Assembly: GCF_026798195.1 (NCBI RefSeq)
Contig: NZ_JAPQEZ010000002.1
Coordinates: 186,001-250,000 of the forward strand
Direction: 5' to 3'
Origin: Lentilactobacillus senioris
GTDB lineage: Bacteria; Bacillota; Bacilli; Lactobacillales; Lactobacillaceae
DNA length: 64,000 bases
Part shown: one piece after another, positions 3,718-49,931 of the stretch
Position numbering within the stretch: the stretch's first letter is position 1
Layout of the letters: every line of letters starts with the position of its first letter
The notes under the pieces: model-generated
The model's input: only the letters and a program-made list of their open reading frames with translations
Told to the model about the DNA's origin: nothing
Database searches by the model: none
Made by a program: the position numbers and the translations under genes

Positions 3718-5271
3718 TTGGCAAACGTTGACTTATCAACATTCGATAAAATTTTAGTGCTAGACTTCGGTAGTCAATATAACCAATTGATTACGCGGCG
3801 CATTCGTGATTTAGGCGTATATTCTGAACTTAAGTCTCATAAAATGTCCGCAACTGAAATCAAGGCAATGGCTCCTAAAGGGATTATTTTCTCTGGCGGA
3901 CCTAACAGTGTGTACGATGATGGTGCTTTTCATATTGACCCAGAAATCTTTAACCTAGGGATTCCAATCCTGGGAATTTGTTATGGGATGCAATTAATGG
4001 CCTACGATCTTGGTGGGACAGTTGAAAAAGCAGATAACAGTGAATATGGACACGCCACCATTAAGATTACTAATGATGGCGCTCGTTTATTTGAAGGCTT
4101 ACCACGGGAACAAACCGTTTGGATGAGTCATGGCGATTTAGTTACTTCAGTACCTGAAGGCTTTGAAGCCGTTGCAACTAGTGAATCTTGCCCAATTTCA
4201 GCAATGCAAGATACTAAGCGCCAATTCTATGGTGTTCAGTTCCATGCCGAAGTTCGCAATACCGAATATGGTATTGATATCTTGAAGAACTTTGCGTTTA
4301 ACGTTTGCCAAGCCACTGCTAATTGGTCAATGGATGATTTCATCGACCTTTCAATCCAAAAAATCAGAGATACCGTTGGCGATAAAAAAGTATTGCTCGG
4401 CCTTTCTGGTGGGGTAGATTCTAGTGTGGTTGGGGTCTTATTGCACAAAGCAATTGGCGACCAATTAACTAGCATCTTTGTAGATCACGGTTTGTTACGG
4501 AAAAACGAAGCGGAACAAGTAATGGATAGTTTAGCCGGCAAATTTGGATTGAACATCGTCCAAGTGAACGCGCAAGAACGGTTCTTGTCTAAGTTAGCCG
4601 GAGTTAGCGATCCTGAAAAGAAACGTAAGATCATTGGAAATGAATTTATCCAAGTTTTCAACGACGAAGCCCAAAAACTAGAAGGAATCGATTTCTTAGC
4701 TCAAGGGACTTTGTACACTGACGTGATTGAAAGTGGGACTGACACTGCGCAAACCATTAAGTCTCACCATAACGTTGGTGGATTACCAGAAGACATGCAC
4801 TTTGAATTGATCGAACCGCTTAACACCTTATTTAAGGACGAAGTTCGGGAATTAGGTGAAAAGCTCGGAATTCCTCATGATTTAGTTTGGCGGCAACCAT
4901 TCCCAGGACCTGGTTTGGGAATTCGGGTAATCGGTGAAGTGACTGAAGACAAACTTGAAATCGTTCGCGAAAGCGATTGGATTTTACGTGATGAAATTGC
5001 TAAAGCTGGCTTAGATCAAGAAGTTTGGCAATACTTTACCGTCTTACCTGGTTTCAAGAGTGTCGGTGTCATGGGTGATGGTCGGACTTACGACTACACC
5101 ATTGCTATTCGGGCCGTTAGTTCCATTGACGGTATGACTGCTGACTTCTCTAAGTTACCATGGGACGTTCTACAAAAAATTTCAACCCGTATCGTAAACG
5201 AAGTAGAAGGGATTAACCGCGTAGTGTATGACGTTACGAGCAAGCCGCCTTCGACAATTGAATGGGAATAA
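3718..5271 (+). CDS. guaA: GMP synthase (glutamine-hydrolysing)
   Basis: Converts XMP to GMP using glutamine and ATP, in purine synthesis. It has an N-terminal class I amidotransferase (GGPNSVYD; catalytic Cys in GICYGMQ; His and Glu in FHAE), an ATP-pyrophosphatase domain (SGGVDSS) and a C-terminal dimerisation domain ending PPSTIEWE. I chose the TTG at 3718 because AAAGGGTGG ends 5 bases upstream; the in-frame GTG at 3709 would overlap that ribosome binding site. The length is 517 residues. The last 21 bases are the phage attachment core. Integration leaves the protein intact but separates the gene from its own terminator, now at 49958-49985. Confidence 0.97.
5251..5271. other. attL core
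   Basis: Twenty-one bases starting TCGACAATTG and ending AATGGGAATAA, identical to 49911-49931. They encode the last residues and the stop of GuaA. The match ends abruptly on both sides, as expected for a site-specific recombination core. Confidence 0.93.
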
Positions 5272-5437: not shown

Positions 5438-6613
5438 TTAATTTTTAATATCATCTTCCACACCACTGAACAGATCTAAAGCTCCGTCTTTAGAAGCCCT
5501 AGTATAATCAGCGGTTTGCTGGATATTAGCATGACCCAACCAGTGCATGGTTTCCGTGTTGGACATTCTGTTAGCCATAGCACGTGTAGCAAAATAGTGG
5601 CGCAACAAGTGAGGGTGAACTTTAATTCCTGAACGTTCTGATAATCGCTTCATTAAGGTAGAGGGTTGAGCGGGGTGGTATGGTTTTGCAGTTGTTGGAT
5701 TGAGCCACAAAAAATGATCTGGTGTAACTTCCATGCCTTTATTTTTTAAAATGCTGTCAGAGTATTCAATGGCTTCTTTGATCATATCGACAATTTCACC
5801 ATAAACCCAAATGGTCCGATAAGCAGAGGGGGTCTTTAATGGGCCACCTTTTTTAGCCACTGTAGTTCTACCAGTTTCAAAAGTAATTGCACAAATTTCT
5901 CTTTTGGCTTTTTCATCATACTCAAATTTAAAAGAAGATTTTTTTAATCCCATCAGTTCAGAACGTCGTTCACCTAGAGTAAGCATATAGATCATGCAGT
6001 AGTTGTATCTAGTAAGATGTTCTTTTGCACAGCTCATAAATTTTTCATAATCTTCTTTAGATAAAGATTGGCTCTTGGGTGATTGGCCGTTAATGTTCAT
6101 GTGGCGAAGCTTATTTTTAAAAATAACGTCATTAGTTTCAGCGTCATTCATGATCATTTGCATAACGGAATCAATGCGTTTGATAGTGAGTTCAGCAAGT
6201 CCTTTGGTACTAATGTCATCTAAAAACGCCTGATAACTCTGGCGGCTAATGTCTTGAAGATTATCTTTGCCAAACGGTTTTTTAAACCACCTATTATAGT
6301 AGTTTTTCATACTTCTGGCAGTAATTGGACGCCAAATATTTAGTTTAACCTTACGTTCATAGATACTAGTGAAGTAGGCGTCTAAAGTGACGTTTCTACC
6401 CTCAATTTTGCCAACTAAGCCATTAGCAAGGTCAACTTCAAAGCGTTTAAGCGCAACGTCGGCATCACGCCAACTTGAAAATCCAGATTTTGTCCACTCG
6501 GAAAACTTACCGTTAGGTTTTTTATATCTGGTTCGCACGCCATAACGCTTGCCTTTCTTAGTTTCATATACATAAATGTTTGGGTGCTTTTTCATCGGTT
6601 CCCAATTTCTCAT
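5438..6613 (-). CDS. int: Phage tyrosine integrase
   Basis: Catalyses integration and excision between phage and guaA attachment sites. The N-terminal 50 residues look like an AP2-type arm-binding domain, followed by a SAM-like core-binding domain (about 75-160) and the catalytic domain. The catalytic set is visible: Arg in GERRSEL, HLLRH (His-x-x-Arg), His in LGHAN, and the nucleophile Tyr in TADYTRA. The start at 6613 has GGAGG 7 bases upstream, so the protein has 391 residues; an upstream in-frame ATG at 6634 lacks such a site. It reads toward attL, as is usual. Confidence 0.95.
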   Translation of the reverse strand: MRNWEPMKKHPNIYVYETKKGKRYGVRTRYKKPNGKFSEWTKSGFSSWRDADVALKRFEVDLANGLVGKIEGRNVTLDAYFTSIYERKVKLNIWRPITARSMKNYYNRWFKKPFGKDNLQDISRQSYQAFLDDISTKGLAELTIKRIDSVMQMIMNDAETNDVIFKNKLRHMNINGQSPKSQSLSKEDYEKFMSCAKEHLTRYNYCMIYMLTLGERRSELMGLKKSSFKFEYDEKAKREICAITFETGRTTVAKKGGPLKTPSAYRTIWVYGEIVDMIKEAIEYSDSILKNKGMEVTPDHFLWLNPTTAKPYHPAQPSTLMKRLSERSGIKVHPHLLRHYFATRAMANRMSNTETMHWLGHANIQQTADYTRASKDGALDLFSGVEDDIKN

Positions 6614-6685
6614 TTTGATTCCTCCATAATTCATGATCGGTTCTTGACTATGCCTAGTTTTAGGGGTACGTATGTTCTTTTGGCT

Positions 6686-20272: not shown

Positions 20273-20356
20273 TTTTGCCCCACAAAACATCAAAGTTCAA
20301 AAATTAAAATTCAAAAATCTGCCATAAGCAACGTTTCATCTAATCTGGGGCAAATT

Positions 20357-20400
20357 GGAGTAGGCTTTAAGGCTATGAGGTTCAAATCCTCGCTACTCCG
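20357..20400 (+). other. tRNA-minihelix-like element E3
   Basis: Acceptor-like stem GGAGTAG/CTACTCC (7 Watson-Crick pairs), a 12-nt linker, and T-arm TGAGG-TTCAAAT-CCTCG with a perfect consensus T-loop. Only 44 nt, so it has no room for D or anticodon arms. Confidence 0.6.
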
Positions 20401-20529
20401 TAGACCACATGAACCCAACTTTAAAAAAGACTAGGAGGATACCCCCTCTTTCTTGTCAAAAATTAACGTTGTGGTTGAACTTGTATGAGGCACACAATCG
20501 AATAGACGTACTCAAACCAAGTACAAGGT

Positions 20530-20624: not shown

Positions 20625-21188
20625 TTGAAGATTGAAAATTGGAGCATTGATGATGTTAAGCCGTATGAACGCAATCCGAGAAGTAATGACGATGCCGTAG
20701 AATCCACAGCCAACTCAATCAAACAATTTGGTTGGCAGCAACCTATCGTGGTTGATAAAGCTGGAGTGATTATCGTTGGGCATACCCGTTTAAAGGCAGC
20801 TAAGCAGTTGAAACTGGAGGAAGTGCCAGTAGTAGTTGCTGATACTTTATCAGAAGAACAGGTTAAGGCTTACCGACTTGCTGATAACAAGACTGGTGAG
20901 CTAGCCAACTGGGATTTCGATAAATTAGGCTCTGAATTGTCTGACATTATGGATATTGATATGACTGAGTTTGGTTTCTCTGACTTTGAATATGATGATG
21001 AAGACGAAGATTTAGACGACTACGAAGAACCTAGCGATGGTTCAACCAAAACGCAACTAAAATGGCCCGGCACGACTATTAACCTTGGCGGTATGGAGTT
21101 AGACGCTCTTAATGAAATTTATGATCTGTTTGACCAAACTACCCGTGGCGAAAGTTTTGTAGAGTGGCTTAAAAATAAGGTGTTTTAG
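20625..21188 (+). CDS. ParB-like nuclease-domain protein
   Basis: 187 residues. Residues 1-100 are a ParB/Srx-type domain (NPRS, QPIVVDKAGVIIVGHTR, YRLADNKTGELANWD). It is followed by a very acidic segment (about residues 120-140) and a short C-terminal domain. Such domains are often fused to, or beside, DNA-modifying enzymes. Here it lies 2 bases before the DpdA-like gene. In characterised bacterial dpd clusters DpdA works with DpdB, which as I recall also belongs to the ParB/sulfiredoxin superfamily, so a partner role is likely. TTG start with AAAGGTGG 7 bases upstream. Confidence 0.85.
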   Translation: MKIENWSIDDVKPYERNPRSNDDAVESTANSIKQFGWQQPIVVDKAGVIIVGHTRLKAAKQLKLEEVPVVVADTLSEEQVKAYRLADNKTGELANWDFDKLGSELSDIMDIDMTEFGFSDFEYDDEDEDLDDYEEPSDGSTKTQLKWPGTTINLGGMELDALNEIYDLFDQTTRGESFVEWLKNKVF

Positions 21189-21190
21189 TC

Positions 21191-22027
21191 ATGAGGATTT
21201 TCCTAAGTGCATTAGAAAATAATGTCGATTCAACATTTAACTACTTAGACCAAAAAGGCAAGAAAATTAAGTCTGGTTTGATTAGTTATTTTTACTTAGA
21301 AAAGAACCAAAAGAGCCGTCCAAACCTGCTTGAAGATATTCAAATGCGTTGCGATGAACTACTAGTCGATAGCGGGGCGCATTCTTTCCAGAGTGGCGCT
21401 CGCGTGAGTTGGCTTGAGTACACCAAACGTTATGCAGAGTGGATCAAAAAAGTTGATTGTGATCAAATTATTGGCTTCTTTGAAATGGACGTTGATAACG
21501 TCATCGGCTATGAGAAAGTTCTGGAACTAAGAAAGATATTGGATCAGGCTACAGATAAAATTATCCCCGTTTGGCATAAAAACCGAGGTATTAGCGAATT
21601 TAAGAAAATGGTCAAGGAAACTAAGGGTGATATCATCGCCGTTGCTGGTTTCCAAAATGAAGATATTTCAGATGACCAGTTTAATAAGTTTGTTAACTAT
21701 GCCCACCACAGGGGTAAAAAAGTCCATGCATTAGGTATGACCCGCCAAAAGGTATTACGAAAAGTTCCGTTTGACTATGTAGATAGTTCTTCTTGGAAAC
21801 AAGGAGCAATTTACGGAAACGCTCTGACTTATCAAGGGGGGCGGATCAAGACTAAAAATGTTTCTGGACGTTTTGACACTAAAGAATTGATGACGATAGG
21901 TCTTGAAGCGTATATGCAGTTAGCTGACTACTATAACGCCATGTGGGATCACGTCAATCACGATCTATATAAAATTTGGCAGTTCGTAATTTCCTGCCTA
22001 ACTCAAAAAACTAAGGTGGTATTTTAA
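21191..22027 (+). CDS. dpdA: DpdA-like DNA deazaguanine transglycosylase
   Basis: 278 residues, similar in layout to the tRNA-guanine transglycosylase superfamily. Visible motifs: DSGAHSFQSG (Asp60, the substrate-binding loop), FFEMDVD (about 96-102), HALGMT (179-184) and VDSSSW (Asp198, the probable nucleophile position), then GGRI. The length and the DSGAH/VDSSSW pattern match phage DpdA proteins rather than tRNA enzymes, and the usual C-x-C-x2-C zinc site is missing. DpdA swaps guanine in DNA for a 7-deazaguanine, which shields DNA from restriction. It sits between the ParB-like gene and queT. Assignment by motif recall, not by search. Confidence 0.75.
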   Translation: MRIFLSALENNVDSTFNYLDQKGKKIKSGLISYFYLEKNQKSRPNLLEDIQMRCDELLVDSGAHSFQSGARVSWLEYTKRYAEWIKKVDCDQIIGFFEMDVDNVIGYEKVLELRKILDQATDKIIPVWHKNRGISEFKKMVKETKGDIIAVAGFQNEDISDDQFNKFVNYAHHRGKKVHALGMTRQKVLRKVPFDYVDSSSWKQGAIYGNALTYQGGRIKTKNVSGRFDTKELMTIGLEAYMQLADYYNAMWDHVNHDLYKIWQFVISCLTQKTKVVF

Positions 22028-22028
22028 T

Positions 22029-22532
22029 TTGAAAGCAACAAAAGTAAAAACACAAAACATCGCATTACCTGCAATGATCGCTGCATTATATGTGGCGATT
22101 TCTTTAGTTTTAGCACCAATTAGTTTTGGAGCAGTACAACTAAGATTTGCGGAAATGTTTAATCATTTAGCAGCGTTTAATAAACGATATATCTACTCAT
22201 TGATTTTAGGCTGTTTGATCGTTAACATGTTTAGCCCACTGGGGATCATTGACATTGTTGTCGGTACGGCTGGTACTTTAATTGGCTCAACTGCTACCTA
22301 CTACTTAACTAGAAAAACAACTAAGCATTTATGGTGGTATATGATTGCTAGCCTATGCCAAATTCCGGGTGTGATTTTAGTAGCGTCTGAATTAACTATT
22401 GTGAACCACATTCCGTTCTGGCTTACATTAAGTTCAGTATTTGTAGGTGAAATGCTATCAATGGCGGTAGGTGCAGTGGTAATTGAAATGCTAAGTAAAA
22501 GAATTGATTTTACTAACGGGAAAAGGAAGTAA
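22029..22532 (+). CDS. queT: QueT-family queuosine precursor transporter
   Basis: 167-residue membrane protein with five to six hydrophobic helices, matching the QueT substrate-binding (S) component family of ECF transporters (N-terminal ALPAMIAALYVAISLVLAPISFGAVQLRFAEM region). QueT imports preQ1 or preQ0. TTG start with AAGGTGG 9 bases upstream, 1 base after the dpdA stop, so the two are surely co-expressed. In a phage it would supply the modified base to DpdA using the host energising module. No preQ1 riboswitch fits in the gap. Confidence 0.85.
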   Translation: MKATKVKTQNIALPAMIAALYVAISLVLAPISFGAVQLRFAEMFNHLAAFNKRYIYSLILGCLIVNMFSPLGIIDIVVGTAGTLIGSTATYYLTRKTTKHLWWYMIASLCQIPGVILVASELTIVNHIPFWLTLSSVFVGEMLSMAVGAVVIEMLSKRIDFTNGKRK

Positions 22533-22536
22533 TCAA

Positions 22537-22761
22537 ATGGAATTTAGTGAAGCATTAACACAATTAAAAAAAGGCAAGCGGATCCGGAGAACTTCTTGGA
22601 GTGCTGGAGAAGAATTTGTATTTGAAGTTGCTAACCACAAATGGGGAGATAACGTCATTAATCCCTTTATGCTGATTAAAACCAATGAAGTACCAGCATA
22701 TTCTGTTTTTCAACCAAATTCATGTGAGGTATTGGCTAATGACTGGGAGGTCGTTAAATAA
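22537..22761 (+). CDS. DUF2829 protein, Tad2-like anti-Thoeris
   Basis: 74 residues fitting DUF2829: MEFSEALTQLKKGKRIRRTSW at the start, FMLIKT in the middle and LANDWEVVK at the end. Tad2 proteins of this family form sponges that bind the cyclic ADP-ribose-type signal of Thoeris defence. The ATG follows AAAAGGAAG. The stop overlaps the SDR start (TAATG). Family call firm; anti-defence activity is inferred, since only some members have been tested. Confidence 0.8.
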   Translation: MEFSEALTQLKKGKRIRRTSWSAGEEFVFEVANHKWGDNVINPFMLIKTNEVPAYSVFQPNSCEVLANDWEVVK

Positions 22762-23480
22762 TGGCTCGCTATGACGATTTAAAAGGTAAAGAGGTATTAG
22801 TTACCGGAGCAGCTAGTGGAATTGGTAGAGCGCAAGTAATTGCCTTTTTACAGCAAGGCGCAAATGTCACTGGTTTGGATATTAAAAAGAGTGATGTAGT
22901 TGATCCGAATTATTCATCAATCCGTATGGATCTAAGAAATACTGATAGTTTAGAAACATTTATAGAGCAGTGTAAGTTTGACATTGTATGTAATACTGCT
23001 GGGATTCTAGATGACTTTCTAAGTGTTGAGGGTACAGATTACTCTTACTTTTCTGACATTATGAAAGTTAATTTGGACGCTATGTTTTTAATCTCCAAAG
23101 GATTGATTGAGCAGGATAAGCCAGTAACGTTTGTAAATATGAGTTCTTACGCTGGATTGTTTGCTAGTGGTGGTGGAGTAAGCTACACAACATCAAAGCA
23201 CGCCATTAATGGTTTAACTAAAGAAATTGCCTTTGAGTATGGTGGACGTGGTGTCAGAGCTAACGCTATTGCGCCATGCTTAGTTAAAACTGATATGGTA
23301 CGAGACGATTTTGAAAGTGGACTAGATTATCGACTGGCAAAGAAAACAGTTTTTAATCGTTATGCTGCACCAGAAGAGATTGCTGACTTAACTTTATTCT
23401 TGGCGTCTGATAGTTCTAAGTACATCACTGGTCAAGTGATTAGCATTGATGGCGGCTATTCATTGGGCAACGAAGTGTAA
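22761..23480 (+). CDS. Short-chain dehydrogenase/reductase
   Basis: 239 residues, classical SDR: nucleotide-binding TGAASGIG (residues 14-21), NTAG in place of NNAG, catalytic Ser in MSSYAG, Tyr and Lys in SYTTSKHA, and the C-terminal GQVISIDGGYS. Uses NAD(P)H; the substrate is unknown. It is close to host FabG-like enzymes and is translationally coupled to the Tad2-like gene. A host-type oxidoreductase in a packaging operon is unusual: it could tailor the deazaguanine, process an NAD-derived signal, or be a lysogenic conversion gene. Confidence 0.9.
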   Translation: MARYDDLKGKEVLVTGAASGIGRAQVIAFLQQGANVTGLDIKKSDVVDPNYSSIRMDLRNTDSLETFIEQCKFDIVCNTAGILDDFLSVEGTDYSYFSDIMKVNLDAMFLISKGLIEQDKPVTFVNMSSYAGLFASGGGVSYTTSKHAINGLTKEIAFEYGGRGVRANAIAPCLVKTDMVRDDFESGLDYRLAKKTVFNRYAAPEEIADLTLFLASDSSKYITGQVISIDGGYSLGNEV

Positions 23481-23508
23481 TCTAACCGAAAGGAGGCTAA
23501 TCAATGAA

Positions 23509-24000
23509 ATGGCAAAAGGTAAATACGAAAAGTGGCTAGAGCCAGAGAATTTGGTTAGGCTTCGTGGTTGGAAGATGCAGGGCCTAACTGATGAGCAAAT
23601 AGCAGATAACATCGGTATTTCTCATCGAACATTTGAACGTTGGAAAAATGATCATAGTCAGATTCGTCAGGCTATAAAAGGCGGTAAGGAAGTAGCTAAC
23701 TTTGTTATCGAAAATGAGTTGTATAAGAAAGCTAAGAGCGGCAATGTTACCGCAATGATTTTCTTTTTGAAAAACAACTACCGTGAAAAGTACACTGATG
23801 ACCAAACTGACCCAGCATTGCGGAAAGCTCAAATCAGAAAAGCTAACGCCGAAGCAGATATTGCCGAAGCTAGAGCCAGAATTGAGGGCGACATTGATAT
23901 GTTCGACGATCAAGAAGCTGATGGGTTCTTGTCAGCTATCAGTAAAGGTGTAGCCCAGTTGAACGATGACGACGATGAGGATGGTGATTACGATGAGTAG
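23509..24000 (+). CDS. terS: Terminase small subunit
   Basis: Recognises phage DNA for packaging. 163 residues: N-terminal helix-turn-helix (LTDEQIADNIGISHRTFERWKND, about residues 23-45), then helical oligomerisation region and a very acidic tail. AAAGGAGG lies 12 bases before the ATG; the start at 23504 is in another frame and soon stops. Overlaps terL. Confidence 0.9.
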   Translation: MAKGKYEKWLEPENLVRLRGWKMQGLTDEQIADNIGISHRTFERWKNDHSQIRQAIKGGKEVANFVIENELYKKAKSGNVTAMIFFLKNNYREKYTDDQTDPALRKAQIRKANAEADIAEARARIEGDIDMFDDQEADGFLSAISKGVAQLNDDDDEDGDYDE

Positions 24001-25339
24001 CGTGCATTTAAAGGCGCCACAATTCAAATACGCTCCGTTCTCTCGGAAACAGTTGCAGGTTTTAAGTTGGTGGCTAGATCCAAGAGCCAAACAATTTGGC
24101 AATCTTTCGGAAGTTAAAAAAAAGCATCCGGAGTGGCTTAACCGCAGTGATAAAGAAGTTTTGATTGCTGACGGATCTATTCGTGCAGGTAAGACGCTGA
24201 TTATGTCCATGTCTTACATTGAGTGGTCAATGACTAACTACAGCAATGAACAATTTGGGATTGCTGGTAAGACGATTGGATCACTAAGGCGTAACGTTAT
24301 CACACCATTAAAACGCATGTTGGCTGGACGTAAAGGCTACAGGGTTAAAGATCGACGAGCTGATAATCTTCTTGATATTACCTACAACGGCGTCACTAAT
24401 CATTACTACCTGTTTGGTGGTAAAGATGAAGGTAGCCAAGACTTGGTTCAAGGTTTAACTGTAGCAGGATTCTTTTTTGATGAAGTAGCTTTAATGCCAA
24501 AAAGCTTTGTCAATCAGGCTGCTGGACGTGTTTCTGTTGATGGTGGGAAGCTGTGGTTTAACTGTAATCCGGCTGGCCCTTATCATTGGTTCAAGACCGA
24601 ATGGCTAGATAAATTAAAAAAACATAAGGCAATTCACATTCACTTCACTATGGATGACAATCCGTCACTAGCAGAATCCGTTAAAGATAGAAACAGGCGA
24701 ACCTTTTCAGGGGTGTTTTATCAGCGCTATATTTTAGGCGAGTGGGTATTATCTGATGGAATTGTTTATGACAACTTCAATAAAGATACTATGGTTGCCA
24801 CTCCACCAAAAGGTGTAGCAGAAAAGTATTATGTATCAGTCGATTATGGTACGCAAAACCCTACGGTATTCTTGCTGTGGGGTCGTTTTGATGGCGTTTG
24901 GTGGTGCTTGAAAGAGTATTACTATGATGGGCGGCACAGCTCACGCCAAAAGACTGACGAACAATATGCTAATGACTTTCTTGAGTTTGTTGGCAAGTTA
25001 AAAGTAAAGGCGATTGTTGATCCGTCTGCTGCTAGTTTTATAGCACAGTTACGAGCCAAGGGCGTTAGTGTTGAGAAAGCAAAAAACGATGTTTTAGATG
25101 GTATTCGTGAAACCCAATCAGCAATGAACCTTGGCAAGATTATGTTTGCGCCCGGTTTGGTTAATTTATTTAAAGAGTTAGCCAGTTACGCATGGGACCC
25201 TAAAGCAGCAGAGCATGGTGAAGATAAAGTTATCAAGCAACATGACCATGCCTGTGATGCTGTTAGATACTTTGTTTACCGTGTAATAAGAACTGGTGGC
25301 GTTGTGAAACCTAAAGTTAAGCCAAAAGCATTTAGATAA
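23993..25339 (+). CDS. terL: Terminase large subunit (PBSX type)
   Basis: Packaging motor and nuclease. ATPase domain with Walker A SIRAGKT (near residue 64) and Walker B FFFDEVAL (near 165); nuclease domain with VDYGTQNP, IVDPSA and HDHACDAVRYF acidic residues. 448 residues, usual length. Starts within terS. The type (SPP1/PBSX-like neighbours) suggests headful packaging, but no pac site is proven here. Confidence 0.93.
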   Translation: MSSVHLKAPQFKYAPFSRKQLQVLSWWLDPRAKQFGNLSEVKKKHPEWLNRSDKEVLIADGSIRAGKTLIMSMSYIEWSMTNYSNEQFGIAGKTIGSLRRNVITPLKRMLAGRKGYRVKDRRADNLLDITYNGVTNHYYLFGGKDEGSQDLVQGLTVAGFFFDEVALMPKSFVNQAAGRVSVDGGKLWFNCNPAGPYHWFKTEWLDKLKKHKAIHIHFTMDDNPSLAESVKDRNRRTFSGVFYQRYILGEWVLSDGIVYDNFNKDTMVATPPKGVAEKYYVSVDYGTQNPTVFLLWGRFDGVWWCLKEYYYDGRHSSRQKTDEQYANDFLEFVGKLKVKAIVDPSAASFIAQLRAKGVSVEKAKNDVLDGIRETQSAMNLGKIMFAPGLVNLFKELASYAWDPKAAEHGEDKVIKQHDHACDAVRYFVYRVIRTGGVVKPKVKPKAFR

Positions 25340-49910: not shown

Positions 49911-49931
49911 TCGACAATTGAATGGGAATAA
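49911..49931. other. attR core
   Basis: Identical to the last 21 bases of guaA (5251-5271). Marks the right end of the prophage. Confidence 0.93.

Follow-up and report, generated by a model that had tools for sequence, protein, structure and literature searches.

A predicted import-fed DpdA cassette in a prophage of Lentilactobacillus senioris

Introduction

The transglycosylase DpdA is required for a 7-deazaguanine base in the DNA of phage CAjan, in which dpdA mutants lose both dPreQ0 (the deoxynucleoside of preQ0, 7-cyano-7-deazaguanine) and restriction resistance, and the DNA of phage Dp-1 carries dPreQ1 (the deoxynucleoside of preQ1, 7-aminomethyl-7-deazaguanine), according to the accessible sections of the survey by Hutinet et al. 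(2019; PMC6884629). In the same sections, the largest group comprises 76 phages that carry DpdA alone, for which supply by the host or uptake was suggested, and YhhQ is reported from some phages with no correlation to any group (PMC6884629). Here, we analyze a stretch of 64,000 nucleotides from Lentilactobacillus senioris (assembly GCF_026798195.1, contig NZ_JAPQEZ010000002.1, positions 186,001 to 250,000), hereafter called the window, in which a prophage contains a cassette of 3 adjacent genes for a ParB-like protein, a DpdA-type transglycosylase and QueT, a predicted importer. A preliminary description of the window had assumed that DpdA phages usually carry the genes for synthesis of the base, an assumption that the 76 phages with DpdA alone contradict.

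Judging from sequence comparisons and a structure model, we consider it likely (roughly 70%) that the cassette modifies the phage DNA with an imported 7-deazaguanine. It is a real and probably active DpdA cassette of a known kind, in an import-only variant with an informative comparative pattern. No description of a phage cassette that combines DpdA and QueT was found in the searchable literature, coverage of which was incomplete.

Results

A DpdA-type transglycosylase in a three-gene operon

The cassette spans positions 20625 to 22532 on the forward strand and consists of 3 open reading frames (ORFs) for the ParB-like protein, DpdA and QueT, in this order. The genes are separated by gaps of 2 and 1 bases, a close packing already noted in the preliminary description, and a GGTG-type ribosome site can be read before each of them. 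The arrangement is not due to chance, since a second genus of the Lactobacillaceae (L098/L100 in our numbering of loci) and a plasmid of Limosilactobacillus mucosae (L107) show the same order.

The protein of 278 amino acids encoded by the second gene matched no Pfam family and no PADLOC model, and its best NCBIfam match (E 0.12) was not meaningful. The profile phrog_887, named "queuine tRNA-ribosyltransferase", covers residues 1 to 262 and was matched by all 16 members of an alignment of DpdA relatives. Furthermore, a profile of the protein aligned with the DpdA of phage CAjan over 208 columns with an hhalign probability of 99.3%, which superposed the DSGA, HxxGxT and DSSSW motifs of both enzymes. 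The DSGAH and VDSSSW motifs, from which a DpdA-like enzyme had been proposed at the outset, are present. Residues D60, S61, G62, A63 and D198 were identical in all 71 aligned DpdA sequences, as were E98, D100, D102, H129 and H179, and 35 residues of the window protein were kept in at least 93% of the 71 rows.

A structure model was predicted from 16 relatives (pTM 0.85) and compared with known structures by VIA-align, a re-alignment of the 1000 best Foldseek chains of which the top 50 were considered. Among these 50 were 49 entries for tRNA-guanine transglycosylases (TGT) and 1 entry for Cap10-CdnD, with Z scores of 15.4 to 16.5 and 241 to 262 aligned residues. The Z score was 16.5 for the human TGT, 16.3 for an archaeal TGT, 15.8 for the Cap10 entry 9ntn in the fifth row and 15.7 for the Zymomonas TGT. 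The profile search and structure prediction that had been proposed for this gene thus both led to the TGT/DpdA families, and on this evidence the protein is identified as a DpdA-type transglycosylase with a predicted TGT fold. An unrelated barrel was rejected on the TGT rows of VIA-align together with the match to the CAjan profile. A tRNA TGT was also rejected, as the host has its own TGT and the profile kinship goes to the CAjan DpdA. This kinship suggests that the window protein belongs to the first named DpdA subfamily. Cui et al. are said to have named the subfamilies DpdA1 to DpdA4 in 2023.

Supply of the base in the window and in the host

Apart from QueT, no gene for supply of the base was identified in the phage. 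At E 0.1, none of the frames of the window matched FolE, QueD, QueE, QueF or YhhQ, and the sole QueC match was weak (E 0.0012) and fell on guaA, outside the prophage. The FolE, QueD, QueE and QueC genes that would give a cassette its own preQ0 synthesis were hence not found, which bears out the preliminary description on this point. The QueT protein scored 128.1 bits against PF06177, for which the cut-off is 33.7 bits, showed 42% identity to the QueT of the host over 153 columns, and could be aligned with the QueT of phage Dp-1. In the accessible text of 2 sources, QueT and its sister QrtT are predicted importers of preQ1 of the energy-coupling factor (ECF) type, and one QrtT transports preQ1 (PMC5372724, PMC11130926).

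The host genome consists of 39 contigs with a total size of 1.80 Mb. The genes for TGT and QueA adjoin, the host's own queT gene is found at a separate locus, and EcfT is encoded at C12:292547-293218 (PF02361 E 2.3e-46). No match to QueD was obtained, nor any to QueE with the single QueE model used, which passed its own cut-off in only 1 of 14 control genomes, so that weak QueE matches matter. The lone QueC-type match is, by sequence, a ThiI-like protein and the lone QueF-type match a FolE-like protein. Since no synthesis genes were found in the host, the cell has to take up preQ1 or a related compound, and the host itself seems to salvage queuosine precursors rather than to make them. For the same reason, with none found in the prophage either, the base of the phage must come from outside the cell. 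As the host has TGT and QueA and no QueF was found, preQ1 is the more likely base, over preQ0 or queuine. Import of preQ0 or preQ1 through the phage QueT had been proposed in the preliminary description; the idea of import stands, favored by the salvaging host and by the exchange of supply modules described below, whereas preQ0 has become the less likely substrate.

Synthesis and import replace each other downstream of DpdA

To place the cassette among its relatives, we assembled 90 DpdA loci, comprising 80 loci on viral contigs, 6 in bacterial genomes, the window locus, 2 phage records and Dp-1, which collapsed to 69 at 90% identity. Searches were made with the window protein and a nine-row alignment, and 80 of 95 confirmed viral loci were included. 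Most loci were gathered by one degenerate motif from an alignment that includes the window protein, and they are therefore a sample of a subfamily. Many of the related loci are metagenome contigs with unnamed hosts. The gene profiles were built from few seeds each. Loci L013 and L097 were dropped as duplicates of the window's own locus (L002). The records examined individually were 5 of 68 DpdA phage records (L001, L004, L109-L111), Dp-1 from the QueT search, 3 of 337 ParB phage records, and 2 of 7 plasmid records.

Supply genes were counted in the 84 loci with 2500 nt downstream of DpdA, and the window's own locus was excluded as too short. QueD, QueE and FolE without an importer were found in 51 loci, of which 49 had QueC or a QueC-like gene as well. 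Another 30 loci had an importer, either YhhQ or QueT, and no QueD. Only Dp-1 contained both an importer and synthesis genes, and 2 loci contained neither. The 66 representatives at 90% identity were distributed in the same manner (38 synthesis, 25 importer, 1 both and 2 neither; Fisher p 8e-15, ignoring relatedness).

A tree was inferred from 71 DpdA rows, with L002 replaced by the window sequence and with omission of L003, L008, L044, L058, rows of <200 aa; its bootstrap had not settled. The 4 supply labels require 16 changes on this tree as compared to a mean of 27.8 for shuffled labels, and the well supported branches force at least 6 changes for synthesis, at least 6 for YhhQ and at least 3 for QueT. 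The window sequence forms a group (100/93) with the 2 other elements of its family that carry QueT, and one QueT cassette and one synthesis cassette make up the next sister pair. By these sequence comparisons, making and importing the base are interchangeable modules of one operon. The searchable literature, of which coverage was incomplete, yielded no account of this exchange, which may already be published.

It was also noted that several loci (L026, L027, L030, L038, L091, L099/L101 and L009-L011) contain an importer and a lone QueC or QueC-like gene, without QueD, QueE and FolE. In L099 and L091, QueC exceeded the cut-off of its family and the genome gave no QueD match, a combination consistent with the import of a precursor from further back in the pathway.

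Host genomes were searched for 7 importer cassettes and 2 synthesis cassettes. In 6 of the 7 genomes with importer cassettes there was neither a QueD match nor, outside the cassette, a QueC match above the cut-off, whereas both genomes with synthesis cassettes contained extra copies of QueD and QueC beyond the cassette, as separated by their coordinates. Several of these genomes are metagenome assemblies, so the absence of synthesis genes from them is soft, and as a trend the phage appears to mirror its host's own route to the base.

The ParB-like gene and the position ahead of the terminase

Of the 84 loci with upstream sequence of 300 nt or more, 78 have a ParB gene before DpdA; its end is no more than 60 nt from the DpdA ORF in 71 of them, and in the other 7 a ParB match lies further upstream. 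Exactly 4 nt overlap in 44 of 72 close ParB-DpdA pairs. No upstream ParB match was obtained in the remaining 6 loci (L003, L006, L007, L008, L020 and L021). The large terminase (TerL) was located downstream and on the same strand in all 63 loci in which it was found.

A search of 397 genomes of the family found the gene in 3, namely that of the window, L100 (ParB-DpdA-QueT) and L101 (ParB-DpdA-YhhQ-QueC), and the cassettes of the latter 2 are also located shortly before terminase-like genes. The phage-like plasmid of L. mucosae has the order ParB-DpdA-QueT-TerS-TerL, and a Monoglobus plasmid record has ParB-DpdA-YhhQ ahead of the terminase. The order in Fusobacterium phage phiFN37 (L001) is ParB-DpdA-DUF6884-YhhQ.

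The window ParB contains a ParB_N domain with a glycine-rich GHxR stretch. In the IVGHTRLKAA segment, G52 was invariant and R55 nearly invariant in 10 aligned ParB sequences. The first approximately 117 amino acids are of the kind that is fused to, or found beside, phage DNA methylases: the protein matches the N-terminus of phrog_498 (DNA methyltransferase) and a PADLOC model for type II methyltransferases (E 6.7e-27). The nearest phage matches were from phages of Lactobacillus, Latilactobacillus and Weissella. In Latilactobacillus phage TMW 1.2272 P1, a ParB domain fused with an N6/N4 methylase is encoded ahead of the terminase; in prophage Lj771, ParB pieces are followed by a methylase; and in Lactobacillus phage phi jlb1 (L106 3501-5076), the ParB gene ahead of the terminase is followed by a gene for a TET (ten-eleven translocation)-associated glycosyltransferase (TAGT; PF20691 E 1e-32). 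Because the same position ahead of the terminase holds ParB together with other enzymes whose known or presumed substrate is DNA, we favor DNA as the target of DpdA. As the slot pairs ParB with different enzymes, ParB need not be a special DpdB, although its location beside DpdA makes it a candidate that may function as one.

Several irregular loci were observed. DpdA is split over at least 2 ORFs in L033 and L036, and ParB is split into 2 ORFs in L107 (6499-7001); these may be broken genes or sequencing errors. Three ParB-like genes are present in phiFN37 (L001 2772-4560), one of them after a PAPS (3'-phosphoadenosine 5'-phosphosulfate)-reductase/DUF3440 gene. Genes for DUF6884 occur in cassettes of both supply types, with YhhQ in L001, L060 and L085 and with synthesis genes in L036 and L080. 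The DUF6884 protein of L001 also matches PF03883 below the cut-off and perhaps performs a tailoring step; PF03883 is the family of DpdC, which converts dPreQ0 to dADG (2'-deoxy-7-amido-7-deazaguanosine), according to the accessible text of PMC12839542. Two BFVD entries, A0A6J5RUN9 (424 residues, named ParB/Sulfiredoxin), which matches the DpdA model at E 3e-3, and A0A6G5XZE9 (449 residues), which is 56% identical to the window DpdA, are possible ParB-DpdA fusions. No such fusion was identified among the gathered loci.

The prophage and neighboring genes

The prophage seems to extend from 5251 to 49931, between 2 exact copies of a 21-bp repeat (Table 1), and is located in the 3' end of guaA, the gene for guanosine monophosphate (GMP) synthase (NF000848 821.8 bits). 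An ORF for a tyrosine-recombinase-like protein (5438-6634) is found beside the left end, and LexA-like and holin-like ORFs are also retained. A megablast search with 15 kb of the prophage against phages gave no match.

The first terminase gene begins 0.9 kb past QueT, and 2 genes are located between them. The first, for a Tad2-like protein, lies directly 3' of QueT and would place 2 possible counter-defense functions side by side. The second, for a short-chain dehydrogenase, is probably a passenger gene. A profile seeded with this gene and the short-chain dehydrogenase gene that follows the importer in L007 (8224-8958) matched no other cassette locus, and the dehydrogenase was rejected as a member of the cassette.

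A non-coding element at 20355-20404 folds (-15.7 kcal/mol) into an acceptor-like stem of 7 bp, a hairpin like a T arm and, third, a short hairpin, resembling a tRNA that lacks the D and anticodon arms. It was not matched by ARAGORN or Rfam. The T-arm motifs of L100 and L105 may belong to ordinary tRNAs.

Table 1. Positions of the cassette genes, neighboring genes and prophage ends in the window
Feature	Position	Strand	Product and start	Evidence and remarks
ParB-like protein	20625..21188	+	187 aa, TTG start	PF02195 E 6.1e-11; phrog_620 E 9.1e-57; phrog_498 E 6e-45
DpdA-type guanine transglycosylase	21191..22027	+	278 aa, ATG start	phrog_887 E 4.5e-36; model pLDDT 88.9; CAjan DpdA hhalign E 9e-21
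QueT, substrate-binding (S) component of ECF importer for queuosine precursors (predicted)	22029..22532	+	167 aa, TTG start	PF06177 E 4.1e-37
Tad2-like protein (anti-Thoeris family name)	22537..22761	+		PF11195 E 2.2e-19; neighbor, outside cassette
Short-chain dehydrogenase	22761..23480	+		PF13561 E 7.9e-42; NF005118 240.5 bits, under cut-off of 270
Small-terminase-like gene	23446..24000	+		By eye, precedes TerL; nucleotide similarity to TerS region of L104, L106
Large terminase (TerL)	23966..25339	+		Named by eye; its profile recovers annotated terminases in L104-L108
attL-like 21-bp direct repeat	5251..5271	.		Last 21 bases of guaA; exact copy of 49911-49931
attR-like 21-bp direct repeat	49911..49931	.		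Exact copy of 5251-5271; inferred right prophage end

Discussion

A model for the cassette and the evidence against it

In the model that we propose, QueT would dock on the ECF energizing module of the host and import preQ1 or, less likely, preQ0 or queuine. DpdA would then exchange guanine in the phage DNA for the imported base by a double displacement of the TGT type, in which D198 is the likely nucleophile and D60 the likely base, roles that we presume by analogy with TGT. The ParB-like protein may bind DNA or nucleotides and, as a partner of DpdA, help it to act on DNA. Expression would be late, and the most likely product would be dPreQ1-DNA that resists restriction enzymes.

Several observations weigh against this model. 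The modified base in the phage DNA is itself a prediction from genes and a structure model. In plain Foldseek against the Protein Data Bank (PDB), aldolases and other triosephosphate isomerase (TIM) barrels took the top ranks and the 50 matches listed included no TGT, and the assignment of the TGT fold therefore draws on VIA-align and on sequence kinship. The PDB gave no match to DpdA in a single-sequence search and one chance-level match (Homer, E 0.18) in a profile search of its sequences, and hhalign with the single host TGT covered only 16 columns at the DSGA motif, where D60 was weakly aligned with the DSGG motif of the host enzyme. No Rfam riboswitch reached the gathering score in the window or at the queT and tgt loci of the host, so the predicted substrate of QueT gains no independent support from that side. 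One host genome with an importer cassette (G400) has genes of the QueD, QueE and QueC types of its own, all on one separate contig, with QueD just under the cut-off, and another (G399) contains a QueE-type match below the cut-off. An importer and synthesis genes coexist in Dp-1 and CAjan (YhhQ-type match, E 2.5e-6), and the exclusion is thus not a law of all DpdA phages; the DpdA of Streptomyces phage GiJojo has no supply gene match within 4 kb. By these sequence comparisons, the exchange pattern stops at the more distant DpdA phages. Lastly, phages frequently carry ParB-like genes (337 records), in most cases without DpdA by label, and no ParB match was found near DpdA in CAjan, Dp-1, BS162P1 and GiJojo.

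Alternative explanations

The observations on ParB also favor an alternative in which the DNA is modified in the same way and ParB is a generic gene of the phage lineage ahead of the terminase, beside which DpdA and QueT have replaced a methylase. Over 117 residues, the window ParB is 57% to 72% identical to the phage ParB domains among the matches listed (the best 30 of the 337 records, some of them 2 records of one phage), 22 of which are labeled methylase or methyltransferase. The aligned ParB proteins beside DpdA have overall identities of 20% to 60%, which is a different measure. By sequence, the window ParB is no more distant from the methylase-linked domains than from the latter, and loci L006, L007, L008, L020 and L021 join the 4 phages in which no ParB match was found near DpdA. 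The placement of ParB directly upstream of DpdA across the tree and the frequent overlaps of 4 nt, however, speak for a functional pair, and in 4 of the exceptions (L006, L007, L020 and L021) the upstream protein contains a short ParB-like stretch, a weak match (hhalign probability 25.6%, 22 columns) in a protein for which the L007 model was poor (pLDDT 40). We regard the generic gene as a rather unlikely explanation.

It is improbable that QueT serves the queuosine of tRNA, with DpdA as a bystander and the phage boosting preQ1 uptake for modification of host tRNA during infection. More QueT would feed a host that is likely a salvager with TGT and QueA, but this host already owns a QueT, and the importer occupies the place after DpdA that synthesis genes hold in the relatives, directly after DpdA in 3 elements of the family. 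Decay of the cassette to an inactive remnant, as might be suspected from its presence in so few genomes of the family, is quite improbable given 3 open frames with ribosome sites, intact residues that are conserved in the relatives, and a prophage that keeps its att repeats and recombinase-like, LexA-like and holin-like ORFs. Attachment of the deazaguanine to a protein, as in Cap9/Cap10 of the type IV cyclic oligonucleotide-based antiphage signaling system (CBASS), is very improbable: the Cap10-CdnD entry is level with the tRNA TGTs in the structure comparison and QueC-family proteins have been proposed to catalyze protein deazaguanylation (accessible text of PMC13329287), but the profile kinship is to the CAjan DpdA, which is required for a DNA base, the window cassette has no QueC, and its ParB neighbors suit work on DNA.

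Implications

The source of the base in phages with DpdA alone was left open in the 2019 survey, and the window, as read here, provides a clear case of supply from outside. More speculatively, and with some doubt, we suggest that phages of gut and food bacteria have a swappable slot for DNA armor ahead of the terminase, in which a ParB adapter is combined with a methylase, a TAGT or DpdA, and the base for DpdA is either made or imported. Protection by import would then be conditional on preQ1 or preQ0 from microbes or diet, and cassettes with an importer and a lone QueC would finish an earlier precursor. Were this the case, such phages would differ in restriction sensitivity depending on the micronutrients of gut or food, and assays of their host range in ordinary media could mislead. 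In addition, the cassette provides a clean system in which to study the contribution of ParB-like proteins to DNA-modifying enzymes.

Comparison with known systems

The window DpdA and that of CAjan are homologous transglycosylases with common motifs. CAjan differs in carrying QueC, QueD, FolE and an annotated radical S-adenosylmethionine (SAM) protein in the region inspected, together with a putative preQ0 transporter, and in having no ParB match, whereas the window cassette includes ParB and, for supply, just an importer. Streptococcus phage Dp-1 resembles the window in combining DpdA with a phage QueT, but it also contains FolE, QueD, QueE, QueC and QueF, and its genes are located beside replication genes and without a ParB match. 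In Bacteroides phage BS162P1 (L110 3199-7222), which also has no ParB match, DpdA is surrounded by QueC-like and QueE-type genes that are annotated as hypothetical. The phages with DpdA alone of Hutinet et al. (2019), their third group, some with YhhQ, likewise have DpdA without synthesis; the difference here is that importer and synthesis take each other's place within a single gene order, and that the window uses QueT. The bacterial dpd island pairs DpdA, a TGT-like enzyme, with DpdB, a ParB-like ATPase, in the accessible text of PMC12839542, whereas the window ParB is a short phage protein that is likened to DpdB by description only. Mycobacteriophage CRB2 resembles the window in gene order: as far as the accessible text goes, ORF1 is a suggested dpdB homolog of the ParB superfamily, ORF2 is DpdA-like and ORFs 7-8 encode the terminase, but in place of the importer it has queC/D/E synthesis genes in ORFs 3-5 (PMC6392294).

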